Source: a virus
Virus record (IMG/VR): IMGVR_UViG_3300023284_001280
Coordinates: 1 to 45,642 of that record
Reading direction: 5' to 3' (one strand)
DNA: 45,642 nt
The notes under the pieces were generated by a model. It was given only the letters and a program-made list of their open reading frames with translations. It was not told the origin of the DNA and did no database searches. How positions within the stretch are numbered: the first letter of the stretch is position 1; every line of letters starts with the position of its first letter. Shown here one piece after another: positions 24,475 through 45,642 of the stretch. Made by a program: the position numbers and the translations under genes.

Positions 24475-24705
24475 ATGACGATTCGTATGACTTGCGAAGT
24501 TTGTGAATTCCTTGCGCGGCTCGGAGCGGAACTTCCATGCGATCGATGTATGTCCATTTTGGGCAGGTTGAAACCGATTGACCTTCCGCCCAGACTTATG
24601 ATTATGACGAACCCAGACGGGCGCAAGCGACCACCGCAATTCGATCCCCCGCAGGCCACGATTCCTTTTCCAGATCCGAGACCTGATCTACCGCCGGCCG
24701 CATAG
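24475..24705 (+). CDS. Small CxxC protein ending in PPAA
   Basis: 76 residues from the ATG at 24475 (a GTG at 24457 is an alternative). CEVC and CDRC form a zinc site at 7-10 and 24-27, followed by a proline-rich tail (PPQFDPPQATIPFPDPRP) that ends DLPPAA at the stop. It is the first member of the gene series sharing the CCGCCGGCCG linker; here the linker is the C-terminus instead of joining two parts. Function unknown. Confidence 0.6.
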   Translation: MTIRMTCEVCEFLARLGAELPCDRCMSILGRLKPIDLPPRLMIMTNPDGRKRPPQFDPPQATIPFPDPRPDLPPAA

Positions 24706-24720
24706 AAGGGAAAATCCCCC
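24706..24720 (+). repeat. Start-associated sequence, copy 1
   Basis: AAGGGAAAATCCCCC directly abutting the GTG at 24721. It combines an AAGGG ribosome binding site with a fixed spacer; GGG and CCC could pair around AAAAT. Confidence 0.75.
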
Positions 24721-25038
24721 GTGACAAATGAAGAAATTGAAAACCACCTAGAGGAGGCTTTTGAAAAGTTGACCTTGTTGGTTAGTTTTATGGGTGTTGT
24801 TGTCGATGGTGTTCGCGATCTTCAAAAAAGGGTCAAAACTTTAGAATCTTTTCATTCAGAAAATTCACGTCCAGTAGAGAATCCAATTTCCTCGACTACC
24901 TCGGATCCATTGCAGCTGGAAATGAAACAGATCATGTGTGACCTCAGTGGAGCATCCGATCCCCCGCCGGCCGAAAAAACACCAAATCAATACCCCAACA
25001 TGTTAGATCAAAACTGGCAAAATCCCCGACAAGCCTAA
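24721..25038 (+). CDS. Coiled-coil protein with PPPA linker
   Basis: 105 residues starting GTG immediately after start-associated copy 1. The N-terminal 60 are an amphipathic helix or coiled coil (IENHLEEAFEKLTLLVSFMG, then DLQKRVKTLESF). A PPPAEK linker follows at about 82, then a short tail without cysteine pairs, unlike its relatives. The 3' end contains a partial copy of the start-associated sequence (GGCAAAATCCCCG, 25016-25028). Function unknown. Confidence 0.6.
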   Translation: MTNEEIENHLEEAFEKLTLLVSFMGVVVDGVRDLQKRVKTLESFHSENSRPVENPISSTTSDPLQLEMKQIMCDLSGASDPPPAEKTPNQYPNMLDQNWQNPRQA

Positions 25039-25051
25039 AGGAAAATCCCCC
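25037..25051 (+). repeat. Start-associated sequence, copy 2
   Basis: AAAGGAAAATCCCCC directly before the GTG at 25052, the same arrangement as copy 1. Confidence 0.75.
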
Positions 25052-25510
25052 GTGGAATTATTGACATATTTACTTGCAATTTCCATTTGCTTGAATTTGC
25101 TCCAATGGTTCATCAAGACTATTCGGGTAAGACGTCTCAAAAAAGAGGGTGATCGTTTAAGGAGTATTCGAGCTAAATTTACTCCTGTACAATCTGAAAA
25201 CATCAAAAAGGCAAGGGAAATTATAAATCGAATTAAACAAGAAAGTATCACTGATCCACGTGGTTTTTATAAATGCGATTTTTGCGACCAAATCGTTAGT
25301 TTCGATGCGGTAACAGAAGAATATGAAAAATGTGTCAAATGTGGTAATGGTGTTATGCATCATTACGAATCTGGTCTTCCGCCGGCCGCTGATCCAAGGC
25401 CAATGTGGGTTGTATGCGATCGCTGCGGTATCCGGTGGAGTAGGGATTTCGAAGACAAGCCATGTAAGGGCTGTGGCGCTCACTTACGTGAACTCAGAGA
25501 AGATGATTGA
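25052..25510 (+). CDS. Membrane-anchored double zinc-ribbon protein
   Basis: 152 residues. The N-terminus is a single membrane helix (LLTYLLAISICLNLLQWFI) followed by basic residues, so the rest is probably cytoplasmic. Then a coiled stretch, a first zinc ribbon (CDFC...CVKC, about 72-98), a GLPPAAD linker, and a second zinc ribbon (CDRC...CKGC). The linker is at DNA 25379-25388. It looks like a membrane-tethered member of the linker family; function unknown. Confidence 0.65.
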   Translation: MELLTYLLAISICLNLLQWFIKTIRVRRLKKEGDRLRSIRAKFTPVQSENIKKAREIINRIKQESITDPRGFYKCDFCDQIVSFDAVTEEYEKCVKCGNGVMHHYESGLPPAADPRPMWVVCDRCGIRWSRDFEDKPCKGCGAHLRELREDD

Positions 25511-25524
25511 AAGGAAAATCCCCC
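25511..25524 (+). repeat. Start-associated sequence, copy 3
   Basis: AAGGAAAATCCCCC lies 10 bases before the ATG at 25535, with an additional GAGGAAACAA ribosome binding site between. This is the one copy not adjacent to its start. Confidence 0.7.
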
Positions 25525-25534
25525 GAGGAAACAA

Positions 25535-25924
25535 ATGAATAACTTTAAACATGAATGGTCACGTGGGCTTGCATTTCCTGATGCCAGGAGCATGGCCGAA
25601 TATTTCTACGCTTGTGGTGCTGGAGATATTCAGCGAAAGCTGGATGAAATAAAGCCCCTTGCTAATTGCAGTAAAAGGGTTCAGCGCGCTGCCATGGAAG
25701 CATCCAATGAAATTCGGAAGGCTCTAGATAAATTATTTAAAGACACTTCACCAGCTACCCCAGATCTGCCGCCGGCCGCAGGTCCGAATGAAACGGTAAT
25801 CGTTTATTCACACGTTTCCAAATGTGCTAATTGTGGTCAAGTGACTAGTGGCCACGATGCACGTTGTCGTCTGTGTGACAAACCAATGGTCAATGGATTC
25901 TGGCAACCTGACGAAGATGAATAG
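25535..25924 (+). CDS. Helical domain + PPAA + zinc ribbon protein
   Basis: 129 residues. A helical N-terminal domain of about 75 residues (SMAEYFYACGAGDIQRKLDE, NEIRKALDKLFKD), then PDLPPAAG, then a C-terminal zinc ribbon (CANC...CRLC, about 99-116). The same N-domain/linker/ribbon layout recurs at 26295, but with a different N-domain, suggesting domain shuffling at the linker. Function unknown. Confidence 0.65.
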   Translation: MNNFKHEWSRGLAFPDARSMAEYFYACGAGDIQRKLDEIKPLANCSKRVQRAAMEASNEIRKALDKLFKDTSPATPDLPPAAGPNETVIVYSHVSKCANCGQVTSGHDARCRLCDKPMVNGFWQPDEDE

Positions 25925-25925
25925 G

Positions 25926-25939
25926 AAGGAAAATCCCCC
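25926..25939 (+). repeat. Start-associated sequence, copy 4
   Basis: AAGGAAAATCCCCC, three bases before the ATG at 25943. Confidence 0.75.
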
Positions 25940-25942
25940 GCC

Positions 25943-26278
25943 ATGAATGAAGAAGAAACTATACGATTCAAAACTCTAGAATTACGAATCGACGAGTTGC
26001 ATTCCTCGGTTCTGTTTCTCAAAGGATTTGCGAGAGGAATCTCGGATCGGATGGATCGACTGGATGCCGGCATGACCATCGAAAATGACTGCGCCTTGGG
26101 CGTTGCCTCGGACCCAGCCGTGAAGCTGCCAGTCACACCCGACGGAGTCGAATATGTGGCGCCTGGCAGAAATGACATTTTGAAAGGTGGTTATTGGTGC
26201 TACGTCTGTGGTACACCTTCCGAATTGGGTGGACGATGTTGTGAAACAATCATGCGAAAAATTGGGCAGAATGGATAA
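25943..26278 (+). CDS. Coiled-coil + zinc-ribbon protein
   Basis: 111 residues: an N-terminal coiled coil (LELRIDELHSSVLFLKGFAR, ISDRMDRLDAG), a middle stretch (VKLPVTPDGVEYVAPGRND), and a C-terminal CYVC...CCE metal site. It shares the start sequence of the series but lacks the CCGCCGGCCG linker, so it shows that start and linker repeats are inherited separately. Function unknown. Confidence 0.6.
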   Translation: MNEEETIRFKTLELRIDELHSSVLFLKGFARGISDRMDRLDAGMTIENDCALGVASDPAVKLPVTPDGVEYVAPGRNDILKGGYWCYVCGTPSELGGRCCETIMRKIGQNG

Positions 26279-26280
26279 GG

Positions 26281-26294
26281 AAGGAAAATCCCCC
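26281..26294 (+). repeat. Start-associated sequence, copy 5
   Basis: AAGGAAAATCCCCC directly abutting the ATG at 26295. Confidence 0.75.
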
Positions 26295-26630
26295 ATGGAT
26301 CCTATAGAAATTTTAAAGGCGTTCGATAGGCTTTCTCAGCAAGTGCTCAAGTTGATCGACGTCGTCAAGGCTCTCGAGAGGCGTGCCCAAGCAAGCGGAC
26401 TTAAATTCGAGGCCCTTCGTCAAAGTATGGAGGCGCTGAATCTTCCGACGATCCCGGATCCCCCGCCGGCCGCGGATCCACCTAGGCCAAACAGTGACTT
26501 TGCTTGTGCTGTTTGTTTTTCCCCTTCAGTGCGTATTTTAGTTGGTAAACGGTGCCCACGATGTGAGAAAGGGATTGTTGTAAAACACAATCTCCCGCCG
26601 ATACCGGACCCCGAGGATCTTCCATATTAG
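26295..26630 (+). CDS. Coiled coil + PPPAA + zinc ribbon protein
   Basis: 111 residues. Start set by start-associated copy 5. Coiled coil at about 1-50 (EILKAFDRLSQQVLKLIDVV), then IPDPPPAADPP, then a zinc ribbon (CAVC...CPRC) and a Pro-rich acidic end (LPPIPDPEDLPY). Last member of the five-gene series. Function unknown. Confidence 0.65.
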   Translation: MDPIEILKAFDRLSQQVLKLIDVVKALERRAQASGLKFEALRQSMEALNLPTIPDPPPAADPPRPNSDFACAVCFSPSVRILVGKRCPRCEKGIVVKHNLPPIPDPEDLPY

Positions 26631-28639: not shown

Positions 28640-29073
28640 GAGCCCTCACTGTTTCACAACCGTTCGCATCAATGATTGCGGACGGTGAAAAGTGGGTTGA
28701 AAATCGAAAATGGTGTTCATTCCTTCGAGGACCTCTCGCTATCCATGCAGGTAAAGGCACTCAGTATTTATCCAAGAAAGAGCTTTTAGAATATCCATCC
28801 GGTATTCTTGCGGTTGTTAATCTCGTTGAATGTGTTTTTTTAAATAGCATCAGAGATTTGAATCATACGTATGATTTGAACAACACAGGACTGACAATCG
28901 GAGAAATTCTAAAACACAAACATACTGAAGGACCTTGGTGCTGGATCCTTAATGAAGTTTTTAAACTTGATGAACCTATTAAATGCTCGGGTGCGCTAGG
29001 TTTGTGGGATTGGGAAATTCCTGAGAATCTTCGAAAGGGTCTGGAGGTATCTTATGATCGTAGAAAGCTGTGA
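28636..29073 (+). CDS. ASCH-domain protein
   Basis: 145 residues with ATGA-type overlap to the gene before. The opening LTVSQPFASMIADGEKWVEN followed by RKW and RGPLAIHAGK matches ASCH (PUA-like) proteins, which bind RNA or modified nucleic acids; the end LGLWDWE is also usual. In phages these are accessory genes of unclear role, perhaps processing of RNA or nucleotides. Confidence 0.8.
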   Translation: MRALTVSQPFASMIADGEKWVENRKWCSFLRGPLAIHAGKGTQYLSKKELLEYPSGILAVVNLVECVFLNSIRDLNHTYDLNNTGLTIGEILKHKHTEGPWCWILNEVFKLDEPIKCSGALGLWDWEIPENLRKGLEVSYDRRKL

Positions 29074-29764: not shown

Positions 29765-30838
29765 ATGCCCCTCCCACGCCAAGAAACGTCGGACTGTCTC
29801 TCCCTTTACAGCCCGGATCTTTCCGATCCGACGATTCCCTCAACGACCGACAGCTTAAACGAATTCTTCGAGAACTACGCGATGCCCATTGTCTACCGGC
29901 CGGCGGGAAAGACCCCTGGCTACCTGACGAGCCTAAACTATTGGGCCAGGGCAACAGGGGATCCACCACTTTGTCAGATCGATCAGTTTATGATGGCCAA
30001 ATTTGTCTCCTATCTACGGGAGAGTTGTCCCAGAATCAAATCTTCCAACACCGTTCGAAAGCATTGCCGGCAATTGGCCTCACTCTTAAAATTGGCCGGC
30101 CCATGCTCCGCGTCGAATCCCCAAGGCATTGGGCTCTTATCTCAAATTCCGTTTTTCCCGACCCCCTCGCCCTGTCACAAGCCGCCCGTGGACAATTTCA
30201 CAGTGGCCGAGATCTCGGACATGGTGTCCGCGGCGCGACTCATGGATGGGCCTGCGAGCTGGGTGGGGCAACGATACACCCCGAGGGTGTTCTGGGAATC
30301 GTTGTTGTTACTGGCCTACAACACGGGCCTACGCATCGGTTCCCTGATGGCCATGGAATGGGGCTGGATCAGCTTCGCGCGGCGATCGAGCGGTGCTTGG
30401 GGGACCATCCGGGTTCCCGCTGGAAGTTACAAAGGCGGTGCCGGCCGGGCTTTTCCATTGAACCAGCCAGCCTACGACGTGCTATTGGGATTGCAAACGA
30501 AATGCGATCCGAGTCTCACGGAATTAGTCTTTCCCTGGCTGCGCAATGGGAGGCCCTGTTGGCCCGGCTCAAAGCGTTTGCTGTACATCCATTTCAAGAC
30601 CTTGCTTGGCCTGGCGTCGATCCCTGCCGATCGGTGGTTCGGCTTTCACGGTATTCGCAAATGCTTCGTCTCGGAAATGGCGGCGATCAATCCACTCGCG
30701 GCCCAGCTGGGGGCTGGCCATTCGACCATGAAAACCACCGTCGATCACTACGTGAATCCGGACATCATTTCAGGGGCAGCCAAGCAGCTTCCCCAACCCA
30801 AACGCTCGGATTCGGGCCAATTGTATTTTTCATTTTAG
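29765..30838 (+). CDS. Tyrosine recombinase/integrase
   Basis: 357 residues with the full catalytic set: Arg190 in NTGLRIGSL, Lys223 in SYKGG, His295-x-x-Arg298 in FHGIRK, His319 in LGAGHS and nucleophile Tyr329 in VDHYVNP. The N-terminal 140 residues form the arm/core-binding region (SLNEFFENYAMPIVYRPA). It would integrate and excise the genome, or resolve dimers of a plasmid form. More GC-rich than neighbours. The attachment site was not found; the parS cluster starts 100 bp downstream. Confidence 0.9.
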   Translation: MPLPRQETSDCLSLYSPDLSDPTIPSTTDSLNEFFENYAMPIVYRPAGKTPGYLTSLNYWARATGDPPLCQIDQFMMAKFVSYLRESCPRIKSSNTVRKHCRQLASLLKLAGPCSASNPQGIGLLSQIPFFPTPSPCHKPPVDNFTVAEISDMVSAARLMDGPASWVGQRYTPRVFWESLLLLAYNTGLRIGSLMAMEWGWISFARRSSGAWGTIRVPAGSYKGGAGRAFPLNQPAYDVLLGLQTKCDPSLTELVFPWLRNGRPCWPGSKRLLYIHFKTLLGLASIPADRWFGFHGIRKCFVSEMAAINPLAAQLGAGHSTMKTTVDHYVNPDIISGAAKQLPQPKRSDSGQLYFSF

Positions 30839-30936
30839 CCGACCGCGGTCGTGGGTTCCTTTGTACAAGAGGAAGATCACCCTTTCGAAATGTGTGTTGG
30901 ACCCACGGCCGTTTTTACTTTTACGGATTTTAGGAT

Positions 30937-30952
30937 TGTTTCACGTGAAACA
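30937..30952. promoter_or_regulatory. parS: parS site 1
   Basis: TGTTTCACGTGAAACA, an exact match to the bacterial chromosomal parS consensus bound by Spo0J/ParB. Starts 36 bp before site 2. Confidence 0.92.
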
Positions 30953-30972
30953 GTTGGAAGGAAGTTTTGGAA

Positions 30973-30988
30973 TGTTTCACGTGAAACA
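30973..30988. promoter_or_regulatory. parS: parS site 2
   Basis: Perfect TGTTTCACGTGAAACA. Starts 54 bp before site 3; the 38-bp spacer after it resembles the next spacer (both contain AGTGCTGGCAAA), so sites 2-4 arose as a 54-bp tandem repeat. Confidence 0.92.
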
Positions 30989-31026
30989 GTGAAAAGTGCT
31001 GGCAAAACTTTGATGAGGATTCGGAA

Positions 31027-31042
31027 TGTTTCACGTGAAACA
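31027..31042. promoter_or_regulatory. parS: parS site 3
   Basis: Perfect TGTTTCACGTGAAACA, 54 bp from both neighbours. Confidence 0.92.
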
Positions 31043-31080
31043 GTCTGGAGTGCTGGCAAACTTTTGACCGTGAGGCAAAT

Positions 31081-31096
31081 TGTTTCACGTGAAACA
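31081..31096. promoter_or_regulatory. parS: parS site 4
   Basis: Perfect TGTTTCACGTGAAACA, the last of the cluster. All four starts (30937, 30973, 31027, 31081) are spaced by multiples of 18 bp. The 30839-31202 gap holds no gene apart from this cluster and the inverted repeat at 31128. Confidence 0.92.
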
Positions 31097-31127
31097 ATTA
31101 GAAGGAACCTGATGATTTTGATTAGGT

Positions 31128-31834: not shown

Positions 31835-32890
31835 GTGGCAGCGGTTCAAAAATCATTGGTTTCGCCCAACGCGCACCCCATTTCGACCTGGGGCAGCTTG
31901 CATCCTGTCGAGATACTCCATTGGCCCAAAATCTCCGATCAGGCCAAATTTATCTATTGTTGGATGCGAGCCCAAATTGGGGCCAGGTCCGGATCGATCG
32001 CGGTGACCTTTCGTGAGATCGCCGGCGTTCTCGACAAGACAGAAAGTCGGGCGCGATGTTGGATCCGCCAGCTCATCGAGGCGGGCCTGATCGAGCGCCG
32101 AGATTGCAAACGTGGGCACGGGGGAGGCCTCGATTTGTTTGTGATCGACTACATCCGGGTTAGGGATCTGAGACGTTTGGACGATCCCAACGCGGACCAA
32201 CCCCAGCTCTTTGAAACCGTCGCATGCGCGCCTGAACCGTCGGATCCGATAGCGCTTGCGATAGCGCATCCGACGGTTTGCGAAAGTGAAGAAAGTGTTG
32301 ATACAAATAATATTCTTCCAGCCGGCCAGAACGAAATCACAAAATTATCACCGCCCGAAAAAACTGGCGCGCCGTTTGCAAACATGTCTAACATTGAAAG
32401 AGAGTGTATCAATAGACATGGTACATTGAACAGTAAGGTAACATGTCATGTAGGATCCAAACCGTCGCTTCCGCAATCGCATCCGACGGTTTCCAATCGG
32501 GCAGAACGCCAGGCGCTCGATGACATCGATCGACGGATCAGGCAAACGCGAGCCGAAGAGTCACCCGAACTCACTCCATTGTCGAATGTGCTGGCACGGT
32601 CTATCGATCGCTTTTCGGATCGTTCCAAATACGATTCGATCAAGTGTCAGATCATCCACCAGATCGACCAGGCCGTGATCGATCCGGAGCTGCATCATTC
32701 GATCAAAGGCCGAGTGGCGGATGCGATGCTGGCCGGCCAGATGACCGATGCCCAATTTCGAAAAATCTTGACCCAAGTGGCGCGGGATCATCGGGACGGC
32801 AAAATCAAGAATTCACCCGGGAGTTTGTTTTTATTTTTGGTGCGACGTATTGTGCCAGCACTTCGAAAAAAGAAAGGATCTAAACCATGA
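31835..32890 (+). CDS. Winged-helix replication initiator-like protein
   Basis: 351 residues starting with GTG. Residues about 30-125 look like a winged helix (FREIAGVLDKTESRARCWIR, QLIEAGLIERRDC), followed by a low-complexity middle and a helical C-terminal region (ELHHSIKGRVADAMLAGQMT). The layout resembles phage O-type initiators, in which an N-terminal DNA-binding domain binds iterons within its own gene. Five iteron-like repeats are indeed located inside this gene (32214-32492). The parB start overlaps the last codon. A transcription factor is the alternative. Confidence 0.6.
   Translation: MAAVQKSLVSPNAHPISTWGSLHPVEILHWPKISDQAKFIYCWMRAQIGARSGSIAVTFREIAGVLDKTESRARCWIRQLIEAGLIERRDCKRGHGGGLDLFVIDYIRVRDLRRLDDPNADQPQLFETVACAPEPSDPIALAIAHPTVCESEESVDTNNILPAGQNEITKLSPPEKTGAPFANMSNIERECINRHGTLNSKVTCHVGSKPSLPQSHPTVSNRAERQALDDIDRRIRQTRAEESPELTPLSNVLARSIDRFSDRSKYDSIKCQIIHQIDQAVIDPELHHSIKGRVADAMLAGQMTDAQFRKILTQVARDHRDGKIKNSPGSLFLFLVRRIVPALRKKKGSKP
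32214..32492. repeat. Iteron-like repeats, candidate replication origin
   Basis: Five copies of a 15-bp unit related to AAACCGTCGGATGCG: plus strand at 32214, 32234 and 32459, minus strand at 32265 and 32478. Copies two/three and four/five form inverted pairs. A GATAGCGC direct repeat lies in the first pair (32248, 32260). Two AT-rich stretches (about 32284-32345 and 32395-32455) lie between the pairs, as expected for unwinding DNA. The position inside the initiator gene parallels lambda ori in gene O. Confidence 0.6.
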
Positions 32891-34464
32891 CCACCGAAAC
32901 CCTAGAGAAACCTCAGAAGATTGTAAAACTTACAAAGGCCGAAGCCGGCGCATCCGCCTGGTCGATCGATAAGCTGGTACCCGGAAAGGGCAATCCCCGA
33001 ACCGAATTTGATAAAGTCACGCTAGACGAATTGTCTGACTCACTAATAAAGCATGGGATGATCCAGGCGATCCTCTGCCGGCCGTCCAAGAAAAAGGGGT
33101 TCCTTGAGATCGTCGCCGGCGAACGCCGCTGGCGCGCCGCCAAGTTGGCCAAAATGAAAACGGTCCCGATTACCGTTCGGGAACTGGACGATCGCGAGGC
33201 CATGGAAATTGCGGTCCTCGAGAATTTGCAGCGGGAGGACCTGCCGGCAATCGACGAAGCCAGAGGCTTTGCGGCGCTGCTCAATGGGGGTGCTTTTACC
33301 CAAGACGACTTGGCAAAACGATTGGGCAAAACCCAGGGTTATATTTCGAATCGCATCCGGTTGCTAGAGCTGCCGCCGGCATGGCAACAGAAGGTTATTT
33401 CCGGAGAAATATCCTCGACCGCCGCGCGAATGCTTGTGCCGTTTGAAAGATTCCCGGCGGTCCTCAAGTTGTGCGAAAAAAAATTAAAGCAACGTTGGGA
33501 TGGTGCCGGAGATATGCCGTCGACTAGCGATTGGGAGGAAGTGATTGGCGATTCGGTCCACCATACTGGCAAACTCATGACGGGCTGGGAGTGGGACGAA
33601 AAATCCGGAAGGTCGTTTAAGATCTTCAAGCCCACTAAAGAACAAAAATCTGAACTGGACATCGTTGAAATCAAAAACATGTACGGTTCGAAGGGTGAGA
33701 CGGAACAAATCGCGATGAATATCAAGCTCTGGCGAAGACTCCAGAACGAAGAAATAAAACGCCAGAAATCCAAATCCAACAAAAAGGATGACACCAAGTC
33801 AAAGGGTTCTAACGGCAAACCCACAAACCTAACCAAGGCCCAACAGAAGGCCGAGGATTTGAGACTCTCGAATCAGCACGTGCTACAAAGGGAACAATTC
33901 CGCCGTCGACTATGGGATTTGAAAGTAGATTGGCTTAGGTTCCTTTGCGCCTCTCACGTTTCAATCAGCCATTTCACATTGTTTAAAATCCTGATTTGGG
34001 CCACGAGTCATTCCAATCATAAATTTGGTCACATGATCCAAAAGGCGATCAAGGCAGCTGGTTTCAATGCCAGCTCTACTCAGTCAGACTGGAACAGTCT
34101 TTCCAACGTGCCCGATAAACCGAGCGATTTTTCCAATGTGGCGTTCCAACTTGTGCAATCTTGGCTTTGGAACAAAGACGAACCCAGTAATTTTATGTGG
34201 GGTGAAGTTGTAATCGCCTTGGTTAAAGATCTTGAGATCGACCTGGAAGCGGCCTGGAAAAAAGAAATGTGCGGTAAGTATTTGACGACGCGGTATTTTG
34301 CGCTGCATTCTAAGGACCAGCTGATCGCGTTGTGGAAGGAATTGGATGGTCGACCCATCGAGGACAAAATTACCAAATCGGATTTGGTTGAGATGCTGGC
34401 GGATCCCATCAATGCTGGTAAGTACAAATTTCCGAAAGACCTGGCTAAAATCAAAAGGTCCTGA
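32887..34464 (+). CDS. parB: ParB/Spo0J-family CTPase partition protein
   Basis: 525 residues. The N-terminal domain has the CTP-binding box GERRWR (78-83) and ENLQRED (112-118); a helix-turn-helix follows at 138-160 (DDLAKRLGKTQGYISNRIRL). These are the parS-binding clamp modules. The protein lacks the N-terminal LGRGL-type ParA-contact motif of chromosomal ParBs and carries a long C-terminal extension ending in a KSDLVEMLADP helical domain. No ParA gene was found. With four perfect parS sites 1.8 kb upstream it likely loads there; partition via host ParA, silencing, or regulation are all possible. Confidence 0.9.
   Translation: MTTETLEKPQKIVKLTKAEAGASAWSIDKLVPGKGNPRTEFDKVTLDELSDSLIKHGMIQAILCRPSKKKGFLEIVAGERRWRAAKLAKMKTVPITVRELDDREAMEIAVLENLQREDLPAIDEARGFAALLNGGAFTQDDLAKRLGKTQGYISNRIRLLELPPAWQQKVISGEISSTAARMLVPFERFPAVLKLCEKKLKQRWDGAGDMPSTSDWEEVIGDSVHHTGKLMTGWEWDEKSGRSFKIFKPTKEQKSELDIVEIKNMYGSKGETEQIAMNIKLWRRLQNEEIKRQKSKSNKKDDTKSKGSNGKPTNLTKAQQKAEDLRLSNQHVLQREQFRRRLWDLKVDWLRFLCASHVSISHFTLFKILIWATSHSNHKFGHMIQKAIKAAGFNASSTQSDWNSLSNVPDKPSDFSNVAFQLVQSWLWNKDEPSNFMWGEVVIALVKDLEIDLEAAWKKEMCGKYLTTRYFALHSKDQLIALWKELDGRPIEDKITKSDLVEMLADPINAGKYKFPKDLAKIKRS
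33397..33410. repeat. ATTTC-N4-GAAAT palindrome inside parB
   Basis: ATTTCCGGAGAAAT (TATTTC-N4-GAAATA extended), the only copy well inside a gene. If a protein binds the other copies it may bind here too. Confidence 0.35.
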
Positions 34465-38230: not shown

Positions 38231-38605
38231 ATGTCCGAGAGAATTTCACCCGTAACCAAGATGATTATCGCGAATTTGTTGTTCGCGAGCCCCCATGAGA
38301 ATGTCCAGATTGCGCCCATCGCCCGATTCGTCGGGGTTAGTGAAAAAACAGTCCGCCGTGAGGCCCGGGACTTGGGGATTATTTACGAAGGTGGACCGCA
38401 TGGCGGTGTCCGATGCAACAAATGCGGGAGTCTCTTGAAGTCCGACCATCACTGTCACGTGTGCGTTGAAGGTTTCAAAAAGAAATTGAAGTTTCGACGC
38501 CAAGCATTTGAAAAGCAGCTTGAAGAAAACCCCATGTCGATTTTGAACCGTTGGAACGAACCGAGTCCTATGAGCGAGAGACGTAATGAGCGACGGCCCA
38601 CTTGA
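38231..38605 (+). CDS. HTH + zinc-finger regulator-like protein
   Basis: 124 residues. IAPIARFVGVSEKTVRREAR is a clear HTH near 28-48, followed by CNKCGSLLKSDHHCHVC, a zinc ribbon, then a basic helix. The ATG at 38231 is taken because the palindrome/AGGAAA block immediately precedes it; the frame is open further upstream but overlaps the previous gene. Likely a DNA-binding regulator, possibly of the palindrome family. Confidence 0.65.
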   Translation: MSERISPVTKMIIANLLFASPHENVQIAPIARFVGVSEKTVRREARDLGIIYEGGPHGGVRCNKCGSLLKSDHHCHVCVEGFKKKLKFRRQAFEKQLEENPMSILNRWNEPSPMSERRNERRPT

Positions 38606-39200
38606 AAAGTATTCGATCAGTAAGAGTCTTGGCTGGATCCACAACGGGGACTTACTGTTGTTCCGCGCCAGCAAATGGTTCACCAGCCGTGCGATCGCAA
38701 TTGCCGGCCGAGGCCATTGGAGCCACGTCGGCATGGCAGCCTGGTGGGGATCGAGACTGATTTGCCTTGAAGTGCGCGAGTGGAAAGGAGGCCGTGCAGT
38801 CACCCTGGCCAGCCAGGTCGCACGCTATCCGGGGAAGATCGAAGTATTCCACGTGAAGCCGGAATTCTGTGGTGCTTACGTCAACACCACAAAACGAATG
38901 AAACAATATGATCGACTCAAAGTGATCGGGGCAATGATCGACATGACCGGATGCGACTATGGATGGTGGCATCTACTCGGTGCCGCCGTTCGACATCTTC
39001 CGGTGTTGCGCCTGTTTACTAAGCCCGTCACTAATGGCGACGTCGGGAAACATCCCCCGTTTTGTAGCGAAGCCTGTTCGATCGCGGCACGATTGCACGG
39101 GCCGGATCCAGTTCCCCAGCTGGCCAATCGAATGACGTGCCCGAGTGATTTGGCCCGAAGCATGTTGTGGTATTCCAGTGGGAGAGTCTTGGTTCCATGA
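38586..39200 (+). CDS. YiiX-like permuted NlpC/P60 enzyme
   Basis: 204 residues. NGDLLLFRASKW, then GRGHWSHVGMA (His47), LEVREWKGG (Glu62) and PFCSEA (Cys160) give the His-first, Cys-late order of the permuted NlpC/P60 group. The TCPSDLARS ending is also typical. Members cut peptide, amide or ester bonds, often in envelopes. In this place, next to a secreted protease and holin-like genes, it may aid lysis. It overlaps the preceding gene by 20 bp. Confidence 0.75.
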   Translation: MSDGPLEKYSISKSLGWIHNGDLLLFRASKWFTSRAIAIAGRGHWSHVGMAAWWGSRLICLEVREWKGGRAVTLASQVARYPGKIEVFHVKPEFCGAYVNTTKRMKQYDRLKVIGAMIDMTGCDYGWWHLLGAAVRHLPVLRLFTKPVTNGDVGKHPPFCSEACSIAARLHGPDPVPQLANRMTCPSDLARSMLWYSSGRVLVP

Positions 39201-40531
39201 AAACCTTTATCTGTTTTTTCATCATTTTAGGCGTCGCTGTTGGCCAGTGCGTGGGACCGTACTGCCCAATACCCTATTCACGGACACCCCCGAATTATTC
39301 AAAAAAGGCACCAAATTATTCACAAAGACCTCCGAATTATTCAAAATCACCACCGGCCGCGTGCCGAATCCAGTCCGGAACGTACATAGGAACCGGCATC
39401 TTGGTTGCAAAAACAAATCGAGCTGCACTGGTTTTAACTTGTGCCCATTTATTCAATAAGCATGAAACGATTCTTGTAACTTTTGGTGACGGTAAAAAAT
39501 ACAAAGCTAGGTTGGAACGTATCGACCGGACGTGGGATTTGGCTGCATTGGTTATTGCGTCGCCGGCGGCAGACCCCGTAACATTTGCGACGATCGTTCC
39601 AAAGCGTGGAGATCGAGTCTTCGGGGGTGGCTTTGGAGGAAACGGTAGGTGGGCATGGGTAAGCGGCGCAATCACAGGTTTCGCAAAACCTGAGAGAGCC
39701 AAAACTTTCGAATATGTGGCTTGGCAAGGAAGTGCAAGAGATGGAGATTCTGGAGGCCCCTTAGTCAACCGAGCCGGGCAATTGGTTGGGCTTGTAGTCG
39801 GAACTGGAACTGAAACGTCATTTTCCGTCGGACCCGTGCTCGCTCGTATTCGTCATTTTTTGAGAGGCTTATTGGATCGATTCCGAGTACGTAGACGGCC
39901 GGCGGCGCCACCCATTACAGAACCACCACCAGTGGAAGCGCCGCCGGCCAAGGTATCACCCCCATCACCAGTGGAAGCGCCGCCGGCCAAGATATCACCC
40001 CCATCACCAGTACCCAAAAAGTCCAAGCCGCCCATTAAAACGCAACGGAAGCCCCTTGAGGAAAATCTTCGGGACATTTGGCCTGGCCGCATCGCAAACT
40101 TGCCCACACCTGTCAAAGCTGGATTTTGGGCGCTTATCGGCAAAGCCTTCGGGATCTCCGCGGTGACGGCCGCGGGAGCAGCAACCGGAGGAACGGGCGC
40201 CATGGCTGCGTCTATGTTGTTTTGGTATCTCGGCCGGAGACGCAGGAAAAGAGAACGGAGGCCTGTCGCCAATTCGGCGGTTCCCTTTTCACCACCGCCA
40301 ATTAACCCACCAGATCTCCATCCGCGGGATGTTTCCGAGGCAAGGTCATTTTTACAACTTTCGGAATTGGAAGGACGTGATCCGGTGGTCGACGGACTTG
40401 TTGGTCGCCTTACGTTGGACGCCCTCGACGAACTTATCGAGGGAAACAATAAACAGAAATCTATGTTCGCGAGTGAGTTTAAGACGAAACTCCAGTCGCA
40501 AGTAAATGAAATGGTTCCACTTTCAATTTAG
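39197..40531 (+). CDS. Secreted trypsin-like serine protease
   Basis: 444 residues, ATGA-coupled to the enzyme before it. Signal peptide at 1-17 (MKTFICFFIILGVAVGQ), then three NYSKxxP repeats, then a trypsin fold with His84 (TCAHLF), Asp114 (RTWDLAAL) and Ser185 (RDGDSGGPL). Next is a Pro-rich region with two PPSPVEAPPAK-type repeats, a Gly/Ala-rich probable membrane helix near 330-350 (ISAVTAAGAATGGTGAMAAS), an Arg-rich stop-transfer, and a C-terminal helical tail. A protease facing the periplasm is unusual for a phage; it may act in lysis or on surface proteins. Confidence 0.85.
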   Translation: MKTFICFFIILGVAVGQCVGPYCPIPYSRTPPNYSKKAPNYSQRPPNYSKSPPAACRIQSGTYIGTGILVAKTNRAALVLTCAHLFNKHETILVTFGDGKKYKARLERIDRTWDLAALVIASPAADPVTFATIVPKRGDRVFGGGFGGNGRWAWVSGAITGFAKPERAKTFEYVAWQGSARDGDSGGPLVNRAGQLVGLVVGTGTETSFSVGPVLARIRHFLRGLLDRFRVRRRPAAPPITEPPPVEAPPAKVSPPSPVEAPPAKISPPSPVPKKSKPPIKTQRKPLEENLRDIWPGRIANLPTPVKAGFWALIGKAFGISAVTAAGAATGGTGAMAASMLFWYLGRRRRKRERRPVANSAVPFSPPPINPPDLHPRDVSEARSFLQLSELEGRDPVVDGLVGRLTLDALDELIEGNNKQKSMFASEFKTKLQSQVNEMVPLSI

Positions 40532-41772: not shown

Positions 41773-42159
41773 AGGCATCACCCGAACGACCCAAAGATGG
41801 ATGCCCACTTGGGCGCAAACCGTTTGGCACCGGTAGACGTAGCCCTTCTGAAGCGCTTTAGCACGATCGTTGAGGCCCCATTTGGTCAGCATGATAATCC
41901 CTGGACGCTTTTTCAACACGGTCGCATAATAGATCGCCTGTCCTACTGCCTCGGCCCATTTTCCATTTGCTGCCCAATCGATTTCAATTGCGTGGGTCTC
42001 CGTCATGTAGTCGCACACGGTGCCATCCCAAAGACGGACCCCGTTGACGGCATCGAATTTTTGCACATTCTTTTTGGCCCATTCGTTTTCACTGGGCCAA
42101 GCCCCCAGCCCGGGCGTTGCCAGGCCCAACAGCATCGCAATAGTGATTAGAGTTTTCAT
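41683..42159 (-). CDS. Secreted PD-(D/E)XK nuclease-like protein
   Basis: 158 residues, minus strand. Signal peptide (MKTLITIAMLLGLATPGLGA), then WDGTVCDYMTETHAIEIDWA and GKWAEAVGQAIYYA, which matches a small family with the D...ExD-x-A-x-K core of PD-(D/E)XK nucleases. Export suggests an envelope or DNA-entry role, such as affecting competing DNA. It is coupled by ATGA to the repressor-like gene upstream. Nuclease activity is an inference. Confidence 0.6.
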   Translation of the reverse strand: MKTLITIAMLLGLATPGLGAWPSENEWAKKNVQKFDAVNGVRLWDGTVCDYMTETHAIEIDWAANGKWAEAVGQAIYYATVLKKRPGIIMLTKWGLNDRAKALQKGYVYRCQTVCAQVGIHLWVVRVMPLIGKKPANETTQKPAGARKNDGGNPDLPK

Positions 42160-42383
42160 CGTTTCAAAAGATCTCCCAAAGGTTTGCCCATGACGTCTGC
42201 CAACGTAAGGCAGACTTGGATCGATGGACTCACGGTGTCGTCGTTGACCAGTTTATTAAGATACTGCCTGGTGACCCCTGCTTTCATAGCAATTAGTCCC
42301 TGATTGTGGGTTTTGAGATACTTTTTTACGTGCTTGAGGAAACAAGCGTAACGTTTTGCAACGCGAGAATCTTTTGCATCCAT
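42156..42383 (-). CDS. XRE/Cro-CI-like HTH protein
   Basis: 75 residues from the ATG at 42383, with GGAGG five bases upstream; a longer frame from 42425 is less likely. GLIAMKAGVTRQYLNKLVND is the helix-turn-helix, followed by VCLTLADVMGKPLGDLL, the usual XRE dimer helix. A short Cro-like repressor or antitoxin-type partner of the coupled exported protein. The palindrome TATAACGAACGTTATA (42541) upstream is a plausible operator. Confidence 0.75.
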   Translation of the reverse strand: MDAKDSRVAKRYACFLKHVKKYLKTHNQGLIAMKAGVTRQYLNKLVNDDTVSPSIQVCLTLADVMGKPLGDLLKR

Positions 42384-42651: not shown

Positions 42652-42675
42652 AAAAAAAGCCGGCACGTTGCCGGC
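42652..42675 (-). terminator. Leftward intrinsic terminator
   Basis: On the minus strand GCCGGC-AACGT-GCCGGC is followed by T7. It would end leftward transcripts coming from the cassette array at 43-45 kb before they enter the repressor region. Confidence 0.75.
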
Positions 42676-42980
42676 GTTACGGCCTGGAAGCCGCGCGGGA
42701 TTGATTCCTAGTATTTAATGGAAAGGGTGAGAATCCATTTTCGATTTTGAAATTTCTGCGAAAGCCTTGAAGTTTCAAAAATAATCCATGGAAGGCGCAG
42801 TTCGATCAAAGCTGCGCTGTTGTTTTTGATCTTCTCAAAGCGCGATTTCTCCTTGTCTTGACAAGCACCCCGCGCGAATCGATGCGCGCATTGTGGGCAC
42901 TGTCGACGTAAGTTGTCGAACGAACTATTTTCCTAAAAATTTATATTTTCTCACATTCCCAGCTGTCCAGCTCGAGCGCG

Positions 42981-43120
42981 GGCCGAGCTGGGTGCATACT
43001 GTCACCGGGCCGGCCATGGGCCGAACTGGGTGCATACCGTCACCAGGCCGGCCACGGGCCGAGCTGGGTGCATATCGCCACCAGGCTAGACCGTAGGCCG
43101 AGCTGGGTGCCCTGGTCGTC
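42981..43120. repeat. 38-bp tandem repeat, about 3.5 units
   Basis: Units begin at 42981, 43019, 43057 and 43096, each starting GGCCGAGCTGGGTGCATA and containing a GTCACCAGGCCGG-like end; the last is truncated into copy A of the long intergenic repeat. The shared CACCAGGCCG word links it to the 106-109 bp repeats, so it looks like a degenerated or expanded part of them. Confidence 0.8.
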
Positions 43121-43177
43121 GACCAGGCCAACCGATGACGCGCCACGTGGCCCGTGGCGCGTGGATCGGTTCGCCTA
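43121..43177 (-). repeat. Intergenic repeat copy A (partial)
   Basis: Covers the strong hairpin half of the long repeat (ACGCGCCACG-ggcca-CGTGGCGCGT with AACCGAT/ATCGGTT outer arms) just after the stop of the 43175 gene; the start-proximal half is replaced by the 38-bp tandem repeat. Confidence 0.8.
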
Positions 43178-43336
43178 CTTCCCCCCGATGAATCGAACCG
43201 GCTTTTTGCCTACCTTGCGCCATGCCTTGGAGAATTCGTCGAATTCATACAAGGCCCTGACCCTTTTTTTGCAGCGCCATGCGTGATAGGCCGAGAGCAA
43301 AGCTGGAAGCGACCAGCCCTTTCTAGTTGCCTTCAT
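43175..43336 (-). CDS. 53-residue basic protein, cassette 1
   Basis: Minus strand, start ATG at 43336 right after repeat copy B, stop TAG that forms the first bases of copy A. Basic and aromatic (KGWSLPALLSAYHAWRCKKR, then FSKAWRKVGKKPVRF). No family recognised. The clean fit between two repeat copies is the main evidence for a gene. Confidence 0.6.
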   Translation of the reverse strand: MKATRKGWSLPALLSAYHAWRCKKRVRALYEFDEFSKAWRKVGKKPVRFIGGK

Positions 43337-43442
43337 GGGTCACCCTTTCGAAATAGAGCGGTGATGAGCCATCACCAGGCCGAGAGGCCAGCAGGCCAAC
43401 CGATGACGCACCACGTGGACCGTGGCGCGTGGGTCGGTTCGC
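43337..43442 (-). repeat. Intergenic repeat copy B
   Basis: 106 bp separating cassettes 2 and 1. On the minus strand it reads: stop of the gene before, strong GC hairpin, GGCC-rich middle, GGTGATG-gct-CATCACC hairpin, then TTTCGAAAGGGTGACCC before the ATG. Confidence 0.85.
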
Positions 43443-43604
43443 CTACTTGCTTTTCTCGGCCTGTTTTGCCTTGTCGGCAATCTTCTCCAGAGCATAATCG
43501 GCCAGCTCGGCCATTTTGGCCTTGAAGTATCGACCCAGAGGCGCTGAACAATGATAGATGCCGATCATAATCCCACAAACGACGACGATAATTCCAATAC
43601 CCAT
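43443..43604 (-). CDS. 53-residue membrane protein, cassette 2
   Basis: Minus strand from ATG 43604. An N-terminal membrane helix (MGIGIIVVVCGIMIGIYHC) then an amphipathic charged helix (AKMAELADYALEKIADKAKQ). Small inner-membrane protein; could act on the cell envelope, but nothing specific is visible. Confidence 0.65.
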   Translation of the reverse strand: MGIGIIVVVCGIMIGIYHCSAPLGRYFKAKMAELADYALEKIADKAKQAEKSK

Positions 43605-43713
43605 AATTTCACCCTTCCAAATAGAATGCGGTGATGAGCCATCACCAGGCCGAGAGGCCGACCAGGCCAACCGATGACGCGCCACGTGGCCCGTGGCGCG
43701 TGGATCGGTTCGC
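43605..43713 (-). repeat. Intergenic repeat copy C
   Basis: 109 bp between cassettes 3 and 2, nearly identical to copies D and E; start-proximal part reads TTGGAAGGGTGAAATT before the ATG, a slightly diverged form. Confidence 0.85.
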
Positions 43714-44940
43714 CTAGCTAATCGTCTCGGCAAAGCTGTTTGCAGCTTGCTCAGATTCAAAGGCGAAGCCGCCGGGCGTTTTGCCCCATTGTCGAGAGTA
43801 CCAGCCGCCCGCGTCTTTGCATCGCGTACGAAGCACTACAAAAGAGGCACGTTCGACTTTCTCGGCCAAGACCACCATCCAAAAGTCGAATTGCTTTTTT
43901 GTGTGAAAATGCTTTTGGACAGTACAAAAAGTATTTTCAACCGTCTCGACTTTTGGCGAATCCAAAAGAGAAAATGCAAAGCAGTTATTTTCGCTATCGC
44001 GGTAAATGCCGATAATTTCAGCGCCGGCCGGAAAGGTCGACTTTTGGAATAAACCGTATACATGTTGTTGTAAGTCCTCGGTGTCACCCTGGCCGTATAA
44101 ATAACGGGTGTACTGGCCTTCATGCTTCACGTCTTGCGCTTTGCACAACCATTGCCCCACTTGAAGGTATAATTCGTGGGGAATGCTGCGGTGAGAATGA
44201 ACGTATTTGGCGCGACCGAGAACGACTGAAACCGCGTCCCCCTCGGCACTGTGATCATAGTTATACATGTCGGTCATTCCGTCGAAACTTCCGTCGGAAT
44301 ACTTGCCGAGAATTGAATCGACGTCTTTTGTCGTAGGGCCAAGATCCCACGATACGTCTACAGAGTTTCCCATTGAAAATGAATCCGAGCGGACCGAAAA
44401 TTTGATCCCCGGGAAAGCCTTGCGAAGTTCTTGCTTGATATTATAAGACGCGCGGGAATGTTCGCTCATTTTACCATCGTGGGCCTTTGCCCATGGGTAT
44501 TGCTCTTGCAAAGTGGCCACAATTTTAGCCGTATCCGCGCTTTTTTTCTCAGCCTTTTTTTCGTGTTCTTTATGGAGTCGTTCCAATTTTTGGTCGCGCT
44601 CTGTGCGCTCTTGGGGTGTTTCCCTTTTGTCCACTTCGAAAAGTTCAAGTTTTGCAGTCTCTTTTTCGATCGCCTCGATTACCGCCTTGTGATTTTCCTT
44701 TGTAATCTCGTAATCGAATTGATTTCCGATTCGCTCCTGGGCGGCTTGACATGCCTCATCACCAGGGGCGGGACCAAATAGGTTAGTCAAAACGGTTCTG
44801 CCTTCATCACCTCCGACAATCCCGGTTATTTCAACGAATGACTTGCCTTTCCAGCGTAGCGCCTTAAGCGCTCCGTGGACCTTTTGGGTCTGTCGTGGTC
44901 CTGCTTTGCTTGTCCATTGCTTGGTTGTTGCTTCGTTCAT
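43714..44940 (-). CDS. LPD29-domain protein, cassette 3
   Basis: 408 residues, ATG at 44940 right after repeat copy D. An N-terminal part, a charged coiled coil near 105-140 (RDQKLERLHKEHEKKAEKKS), then IKQELRKAFPGIKFSVRSDS followed by DVSWDLGPTTKDVDSILGKY, which matches the LPD29 domain of phage and plasmid polyvalent proteins. The C-terminal 130 residues hold WYSRQWG and FAFESEQAANSF. LPD29 genes are probably early accessory or anti-host factors. Function unknown. Confidence 0.75.
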   Translation of the reverse strand: MNEATTKQWTSKAGPRQTQKVHGALKALRWKGKSFVEITGIVGGDEGRTVLTNLFGPAPGDEACQAAQERIGNQFDYEITKENHKAVIEAIEKETAKLELFEVDKRETPQERTERDQKLERLHKEHEKKAEKKSADTAKIVATLQEQYPWAKAHDGKMSEHSRASYNIKQELRKAFPGIKFSVRSDSFSMGNSVDVSWDLGPTTKDVDSILGKYSDGSFDGMTDMYNYDHSAEGDAVSVVLGRAKYVHSHRSIPHELYLQVGQWLCKAQDVKHEGQYTRYLYGQGDTEDLQQHVYGLFQKSTFPAGAEIIGIYRDSENNCFAFSLLDSPKVETVENTFCTVQKHFHTKKQFDFWMVVLAEKVERASFVVLRTRCKDAGGWYSRQWGKTPGGFAFESEQAANSFAETIS

Positions 44941-45049
44941 TGTGTCACCCTTTCGAATACAATGCGGTGATGAGCCATCACCAGGCCGAGAGGCCGACCA
45001 GGCCAACCGATGACGCGCCACGTGGCCCGTGGCGCGTGGATCGGTTCGC
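44941..45049 (-). repeat. Intergenic repeat copy D
   Basis: 109 bp between cassettes 4 and 3; includes both hairpins and TTCGAAAGGGTGACACA right before the LPD29 gene ATG. Confidence 0.85.
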
Positions 45050-45244
45050 CTAGCGTTTCAATCCAAGGGCCTTTGCAGCCCTCGGGCTTATCCACCCTTT
45101 CGAATTGGTTTGAACGGTCGCGCGGTCGACCGTCCCTCTGAGATAAGCGGAAACTATTAGAATCGATTTTTGCTGATCCCCGCCGGTTTTTTTCATAGCT
45201 ACCCTATATAGATCGGACAATTCCATATTTTGCGTCATCGCCAT
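45050..45244 (-). CDS. 64-residue protein, cassette 4
   Basis: ATG at 45244 after repeat copy E; stop TAG is the first base block of copy D. Helical start (MELSDLYRVAMKKTGGDQQK) and an end (GWISPRAAKALGLKR) that looks like a small DNA- or protein-binding module. Its first 81 bp are duplicated, inverted, at the right window edge. Function unknown. Confidence 0.6.
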   Translation of the reverse strand: MAMTQNMELSDLYRVAMKKTGGDQQKSILIVSAYLRGTVDRATVQTNSKGWISPRAAKALGLKR

Positions 45245-45351
45245 TGTGTCACCCTTTCGAGTAGAGCGGTGATGAGCCATCACCAGGCCGAGAGGCCGAC
45301 CGGGCCAACCGATGACGCGCCACGTGGACCGTGGCGCGTGGATCGGTTCGC
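45245..45351 (-). repeat. Intergenic repeat copy E
   Basis: 107 bp between cassettes 5 and 4, nearly identical to copies B-D. Confidence 0.85.
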
Positions 45352-45453
45352 CTAGCTTAGAACCCAGCGCTTCACAATCCCCACCACTATGCCAGCGCCA
45401 TAAGCCAACGTGCAAAGCAAGAGGTACGCGATCATCCAATCAAATAGTGCCAC
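45352..45453 (-). CDS. 33-residue membrane miniprotein, cassette 5
   Basis: GTG at 45453, placed exactly where the ATG stands in the other cassettes (after CGAAAGGGTGAGACC); stop TAG merges into copy E. A single membrane helix (MIAYLLLCTLAYGAGIVVGI) with a basic end. First gene of the array in transcription order. Confidence 0.55.
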   Translation of the reverse strand: MALFDWMIAYLLLCTLAYGAGIVVGIVKRWVLS

Positions 45454-45556: not shown

Positions 45557-45565
45557 CAATAGGCG

Positions 45566-45642
45566 ATGACGCAAAATATGGAATTGTCCGATCTATATAG
45601 GGTAGCTATGAAAAAAACCGGCGGGGATCAGCAAAAATCGAT
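45566..45642 (+). CDS. Truncated second copy of the cassette 4 gene
   Basis: Plus-strand ATG at 45566 opens 25 codons identical to the minus-strand gene at 45050-45244 (from MTQNMELSDLYRVAMK on) and runs off the window. Its leader differs from the cassette leader by small insertions. If real, it would be divergently transcribed from the array. Confidence 0.35.
   Translation, partial: MTQNMELSDLYRVAMKKTGGDQQKS

Follow-up and report, generated by a model that had tools for sequence, protein, structure and literature searches.

Near-identical, structured stop-codon-to-ribosome-binding-site connectors in a leftward gene array of a probable planctomycete phage: a possible joint for RNA insulation and gene exchange

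How phages swap small accessory genes without wrecking the operons that carry them is an old question, and it is raised anew by one end of the viral record IMGVR_UViG_3300023284_001280, analysed here over its whole length of 45,642 nucleotides (the window). There, an earlier note made from sequence alone had described leftward genes of unrelated content joined by almost identical repeats, and had offered three functions for these: terminator plus leader, processing of a polycistron, or a recombination joint like integron attC. From right to left, the region is laid out as follows.

45562..45642 (+): 81 nt that repeat the 5' part of gene 2 in inverted orientation; the leader has diverged, and the copy is truncated where the contig stops
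45527..45556 (-): sigma-70-like promoter candidate upstream of gene 1, TTGACA-N18-GACAAT; 10/12 matches, by consensus only
45352..45453 (-): gene 1, 33 aa, GTG start, single transmembrane-like segment (open reading frame, ORF)
45245..45354 (-): spacer copy 1, with the gene 1 TAG; hairpin 1 at 45303-45352, hairpin 2 at 45267-45285
45050..45244 (-): gene 2, 64 aa (ORF)
44941..45052 (-): spacer copy 2; hairpin 1 at 45001-45050, hairpin 2 at 44965-44983; core the same as in copy 3
43714..44940 (-): gene 3, 408 aa; LPD29 domain at residues 167-252, plus a C-terminal module
43605..43716 (-): spacer copy 3; hairpin 1 at 43665-43714, hairpin 2 at 43629-43647
43443..43604 (-): gene 4, 53 aa, N-terminal transmembrane-like segment (ORF and sequence)
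43337..43445 (-): spacer copy 4; hairpin 1 at 43394-43443, hairpin 2 at 43359-43377
43175..43336 (-): gene 5, 53 aa, basic (ORF)
43120..43177 (-): half copy 5, hairpin 1 only, at the array end; its 58 nt match copies 2 and 3 exactly
42967..43119 (-): degenerate 38-bp tandem repeats, GGCCTGGTGACGGTATGCACCCAGCTCGGCC; model R1 runs into them (68.9 bits)
42659..42675 (-): intrinsic terminator candidate downstream of the array, a GCCGGC stem and then TTTTTTT
42156..42383 (-): Cro/CI-type helix-turn-helix gene, downstream and separate from the array (Pfam HTH_3, E 1.9e-7)

The basic layout reported earlier, five genes of 33-408 residues with near-identical stop-to-ribosome-binding-site repeats between them, is borne out. 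By the ORF list, the minus strand of 43120-45453 holds genes of 33, 64, 408, 53 and 53 aa, separated from stop to start by spacers of 107 (45245-45351), 109 (44941-45049), 109 (43605-43713) and 106 nt (43337-43442) that are 88-94% identical in pairwise comparison. That the genes are unrelated while the repeats are far more alike also stands: the flanking gene ends (first or last 96 nt) show 44-56% identity where background is 48% +/- 3%, and comparison of the five array proteins with one another gave no match, the sole hit covering 6 residues (E 0.6). Each spacer runs from the upstream TAG to the next gene's Shine-Dalgarno (GAAAGGGTG) and start codon; its 89-nt core, TAG...CACCGC, is exactly the same in copies 2 and 3, with a few differences in copies 1 and 4. 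As to the number of repeats, four full, near-identical copies are confirmed, and the last, after gene 5, is only half a copy, so that the count is four full and one half, not five full; its first 58 nt are kept and are 100% identical to copies 2 and 3, and the degenerate tandem repeats beyond it are similar to the hairpin-2 part. Gene 1 has as its leader the Shine-Dalgarno part of the spacer only. Since the spacer lengths leave remainders of 2, 1, 1 and 1 on division by three, and hence have no common frame with either gene, readthrough of a stop codon would not fuse neighbouring genes, and a readthrough reading was rejected.

As for what the array encodes, gene 3 matches Pfam LPD29 (E 5.8e-19) and PHROG 15549 and 15406, and its C-terminal module is also present in large phage proteins. 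LPD29 is reportedly one of the domains of polyvalent proteins, which phages and plasmids are said to use in conflicts with their hosts. Gene 1 has neither a Pfam nor a PHROG match; small membrane proteins seem to be encoded by genes 1 and 4, each of which has a transmembrane-like segment.

Copies this similar could stem from a recent segmental duplication, whereby one connector was copied a short while ago and has no selected function; copies 2 and 3, identical over 89 nt, would suit such an origin, as would the lack of the repeat elsewhere in our searches (see below). A segmental duplication should, however, carry gene ends along, yet identity stops at the stop and start codons; moreover, every copy folds strongly, and related elements show this layout again with a different sequence. 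Two copies that are not neighbours, 1 and 4, have in common a loop T and a 2-nt deletion relative to copies 2 and 3, and variants common to such copies are not what stepwise tandem duplication predicts; their distribution appears to fit exchange or conversion better, in a comparison of two characters only. We consider duplication without function very unlikely.

The spacers are notable for their folds. Predicted RNA folds of the full copies reach -60 to -63 kcal/mol, with z scores of -5.5 to -6.0 computed against dinucleotide shuffles, no shuffle being as good. Hairpin 1, GGC-G-AACCGAT-CC-ACGCGCCACG / CGTGGCGCGT-C-ATCGGTT-G-GCC, is built of 20 pairs (3+7+10), interrupted by a 2x1 bulge and by a G:G mismatch that is conserved, and its first base is the third base of the upstream TAG stop codon. 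Between it and hairpin 2, which has 8 pairs (GGTGATG-GCT-CATCACC and one G-U), lies a mini-hairpin with GGCC arms; from hairpin 2 to the Shine-Dalgarno there remain ~8-10 nt of poorly conserved sequence, the least conserved part of the spacer. This is the repeat anatomy that had been proposed (a strong hairpin with outer arms, a GGCC middle and a GGTGATG/CATCACC hairpin), and it was found in the four full copies. Pairing changes among the array copies consist of one G-U, one broken pair and zero two-sided changes, the copies being too alike for covariation, and no Rfam family matches the array up to E = 1.

Hairpin 2 could also be read at the DNA level. Its perfect 17-bp palindrome, GGTGATG-GCT-CATCACC, occurs in 4/4 full copies with a Cro/CI-type gene next door, as might be expected of an operator array in which the palindrome is bound by the downstream helix-turn-helix protein (75 aa) and the operon is thereby silenced, like the stoperators of mycobacteriophage L5. 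There are, however, no more copies of the palindrome near candidate promoters or elsewhere in the window, and the conservation of hairpin 1 would be left unexplained; such a role thus seems to us hardly credible.

Transcription signals bear more directly on the part played by the folds. A consensus scan, confined to the sigma-70 type, found no such site on the coding (minus) strand of the spacers, and no U-tract follows hairpin 1 or hairpin 2 in any spacer, the tails after hairpin 2 being CATTGTATTC, CATTCTATTT and CTCTATTTCG. An intrinsic terminator in each spacer, i.e., a G+C-rich hairpin with a direct U-tract, was rejected for want of the U-tract. With neither U-tract nor promoter in the spacers, one promoter-like site upstream and one terminator candidate downstream, the array has the look of a single operon, and one leftward transcript is favoured from these signals. 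Of the suggested "terminator plus leader", the leader thus survives, and the terminator is not supported, given the missing U-tract and the missing per-gene promoter-like site.

Within such a transcript, long stem-loops between cistrons have a precedent in the early region of phage T7, where RNase III sites of this form punctuate the early polycistron. The predicted stem of the window, at 20+ pairs, is on paper long enough for RNase III and is likewise intercistronic; the T7 sites differ in not being near-identical stop-to-ribosome-binding-site units. The connectors might thus be RNA elements pure and simple, one T7-early-like site for RNase III-type processing or 3'-protection per cistron, to which recombination is irrelevant. 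Such elements would explain well why a stem of 20+ pairs with a mismatch and a bulge lies at each intercistronic boundary, always in transcript orientation, with no U-tract and with single candidates for promoter and terminator; they would not explain why identity also covers the loop, the GGCC segment and the Shine-Dalgarno, all dispensable for a processing site, and the window copies give them no covariation support. As the full account of the array, we find this unlikely, albeit deserving of weight. Processing of the polycistron, as had been suggested in the earlier note, is compatible with the modelled folds, and is the role that we prefer at the RNA level for a connector that may also serve in recombination.

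Regarding recombination, the analogy with integron attC does not hold. For R' (GTTRRRY) the repeat offers GTTGGCC, with C as the sixth base, and for R'' (RYYYAAC) it offers GGCGAAC; the 60 nt beyond R' and the would-be crossover are as conserved as the hairpin; and no integron integrase was found in the window, where the tyrosine recombinase (29765-30838) is a generic Phage_integrase by Pfam, with no NCBIfam integron model matching. REP/RAYT elements were likewise rejected, as all copies lie within one operon and the window has no Y1_Tnp. Where the earlier note spoke of a recombination joint, it is in the sense of homologous exchange that the idea is supported, indirectly and by analogy, by the hairpin-bounded blocks of planctomycete elements described below.

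The same repeat was sought in other phages, as had been recommended, and none turned up in IMG/VR, ~85,000 genomes, phages or plasmids. In the 2.9 million viral contigs of IMG/VR, the outer-stem pattern gave 12 chance matches only and no second occurrence, and the inner-stem pattern and the pattern of hairpin 2 plus Shine-Dalgarno gave zero matches. Across 84,980 genomes, the outer stem had 17 scattered chance matches, and in 0/17 was the inner stem present; three matches were in planctomycetes, and none of these came with a similar repeat family. BLASTN of the repeat against phages and plasmids returned nothing, and a covariance model run on 294 Planctomycetota genomes with strict filters, and on 21 related loci, returned nothing better than E = 1. 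At the sensitivity of the search tool, the large terminase subunit (TerL), the major capsid protein, the gene 2 product and a flanking 158-aa protein have no relatives in IMG/VR. The LPD29 relatives L018-L020 carry hairpin leaders in two copies, but their viruses are A+T-rich and otherwise unrelated, and no Rfam family fits; they were set aside.

The host is probably a planctomycete, given that the best TerL matches and a run of syntenic structural genes are found in Planctomycetota prophages. The window TerL aligns with these over nearly its full length at 243, 235 and 216 bits, versus at most 128 bits for Pseudomonadota; the assignment rests on 31-34% TerL identity. The prophages of genomes G058 and G191 have the syntenic structural-gene run in common with the window phage at 22-36% identity, and are flanked by 49-bp direct repeats, of which that of G058 overlaps a tRNA gene.

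In these prophages, hairpins at stop codons part the genes of a variable region adjoining the terminase block. The early region of the G058 prophage (element A) has a 55-60 nt repeat in four copies, each running from stop codon to Shine-Dalgarno; the hairpin, TGTCCGGGTAA-N6-TTACCCGGACA, differs in sequence from the window spacer, and we claim no homology between the two. Six copies occur in the G191 prophage and ~50 in B and C, two further elements of G058. Among 66 hairpins examined, 44 are no more than 120 nt from a stop codon, as a raw count without a shuffled control. The stems covary, with 33 two-sided cells versus 17.4 +/- 2.9 after shuffling and 1-8 with the partners slid; given the relatedness of the copies, the shuffle count should not be read as a probability. 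The palindrome was found in 9 of the 170 genomes of the family examined, multiple copies being mostly clustered, and in 0/200 from Pseudomonadota. We know of no description in the literature of the hairpin-separated arrays of G058 and G191. They lie at 275-299 kb (L094-L096), 4.39-4.42 Mb (L097, L099) and 1.155-1.164 Mb (L051) of G058:C1 and at 2.741-2.746 Mb of G191:C1 (L056), with the hairpins often paired ~55-65 nt apart. Another planctomycete contig, G609:C63, has ~17 intergenic palindromes of 65-90 nt (GGGACCTATGGGACGCATGCGACCAATGA...TCATCGGTCCCAC...) at 23.7-51.4 kb (L088, L089), often directly after stop codons; considered as a host-type element, these palindromes were set aside as dispersed and different in sequence. 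G619 and G592 yielded nothing comparable to the array.

Comparison of the elements locates their breakpoints. A, B and C of G058 have a common left flank, with a 374-aa gene that is 53-63% identical, and a common right flank of pre-terminase genes; between these, B and C carry ~20 genes each with no protein in common. DNA identity of 90% between B and C stops at B11306/C27386, inside hairpins starting at B11300/C27380, and identity of 93% returns at B33634/C42981, right after the hairpins at B33605/C42950. Homology between A and C ends at 24956, and the stop-to-Shine-Dalgarno repeat c1 starts at 24957, recurring in C 1.6 kb further on behind three other genes. A and the G191 prophage, with TerLs 83% identical, diverge at 24959. 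Gene blocks in these elements thus have hairpins at both of their ends. Among the larger cargo genes are some of defence type, encoding TIR-NB-ARC-TPR, Roc-COR, Mrr endonuclease, TIR and DUF4062-TPR proteins. No TerL homologue was found in the stretches of B and C that were read, so these two may be satellites or remnants. The G058/G191 arrays thus resemble the window array in having stop-codon hairpins between unrelated genes, and in A four stop-to-Shine-Dalgarno copies; they differ in that the palindrome is unrelated, shorter and A+T-flanked, the genes lie on both strands, and many elements are involved.

Among known systems, T4-like phages have small, variable and mutually unrelated early genes with copies of a stem-loop between them, the promoter early stem-loop (PeSL; Arbiol et al. 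2010 and Comeau et al. 2014, after passages of PMC4503421 and PMC3950731); according to the same passages, PeSLs are thought to mediate modular shuffling, and a similar motif occurs in the haloarchaeal virus HGTV-1 (PMC4503421, PMC3950731). Like a PeSL, the window stem-loop sits where the upstream gene ends, with the stop codon at the foot of its stem. The window repeat differs in that (i) it has neither a U-tract nor a promoter of the sigma-70-like type, the one type scanned for, and (ii) it is nearly identical from copy to copy, extends exactly from stop codon to Shine-Dalgarno and lies inside an apparent single operon. As a promoter was sought and not found, PeSL membership is not claimed; by analogy, the best reading is that the element would work like a promoterless PeSL. 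Were it instead a true PeSL, i.e., a terminator plus new-promoter cassette making each gene its own transcription unit, the position and hairpin would fit the layout, hairpin 2 did score as terminator-like through the loose T content of its tail, and the analogue hairpins of G058 and G191, which may be terminators, often precede T-rich sequence. Neither window hairpin is followed by a real U-tract, however, no minus-strand sigma-70-like site lies in the spacers, and the stretch from hairpin 2 to the Shine-Dalgarno is the least conserved; such a cassette is thus quite unlikely in our view.

In cluster K mycobacteriophages, the start-associated sequence (SAS, 13 bp, GGGATAGGAGCCC) is a repeat that ends at the translation start of many genes, preceded in about half by inverted repeats (ESAS, 17 bp, imperfect); these are scattered across the genome's right half, on the start side only, and are not tied to an upstream stop codon (PMC3203893). 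The start-side motif of the window is TTCGAAAGGGTG, not GGGATAGGAGCCC. That motif also occurs on the minus strand at 45093-45104 (inside gene 2) and 30878-30889 and, with one mismatch, on the plus strand at 29030-29041.

We propose that a temperate-type tailed phage has here an early or accessory operon in which a standard connector links the unrelated genes and serves both RNA insulation and gene exchange, a proposal for and against which we find the arguments about evenly balanced. For the array itself we infer the single transcript, the RNA role and the exchange. In RNA, the connector would present a stem-loop of 20+ bp rooted in the upstream stop codon and then a small hairpin and ribosome-binding site; its most likely role would be to separate the cistrons of one transcript, such that the upstream message is processed or its 3' end protected from exonucleases and the next gene is translated independently. 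In DNA, a crossover between two near-identical 110-nt connectors would leave the operon intact, and genes could be lost, gained or exchanged as units. Because near-identity extends exactly from stop codon to ribosome-binding site, every homologous crossover would be productive, and the genes would be swappable as units; connectors of this kind are also easy to spot in raw sequence. The weakest point is that the repeat and the phage are so far unique.

More tentatively, planctomycete phages and related elements may use structured stop-to-ribosome-binding-site connectors as dedicated joints for exchanging accessory genes, with lineage-specific sequences, the 110-nt two-hairpin version of the window being the most elaborate; as part of this possible but rather doubtful scheme, the cargo would be counter-defence genes in the window phage and partly defence-type genes in its relatives. 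Since the analogous hairpins bound exchanged blocks, several with defence-type proteins, hairpins could serve as gene-finding markers, and might point to new defence or counter-defence genes in the poorly studied Planctomycetota.

Other features of the window merit mention. The inverted copy of gene 2 at 45562-45642 forms a perfect 81-nt inverted repeat with 45162-45242, with leaders that are similar but diverged (AAAGGGTGTCAACAATAGGCG versus AAAGGGTGACACAATGGCG); it is either the start of a second, divergent array or an assembly artefact, as 81 may be a k-mer length. Ahead of their start codons, several genes at 24702-26317 have AAGGAAAATCCCCC as a common leader, which makes a second and shorter start-associated repeat. 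At 38586-40531, a YiiX-like papain-fold protein (weak match) adjoins a trypsin/HtrA-like protease. Lastly, four perfect canonical parS sites (TGTTTCACGTGAAACA) at 30930-31110, between the tyrosine integrase and a ParB/Noc-like gene (32887-34464), constitute a chromosome-type partition site in a phage.
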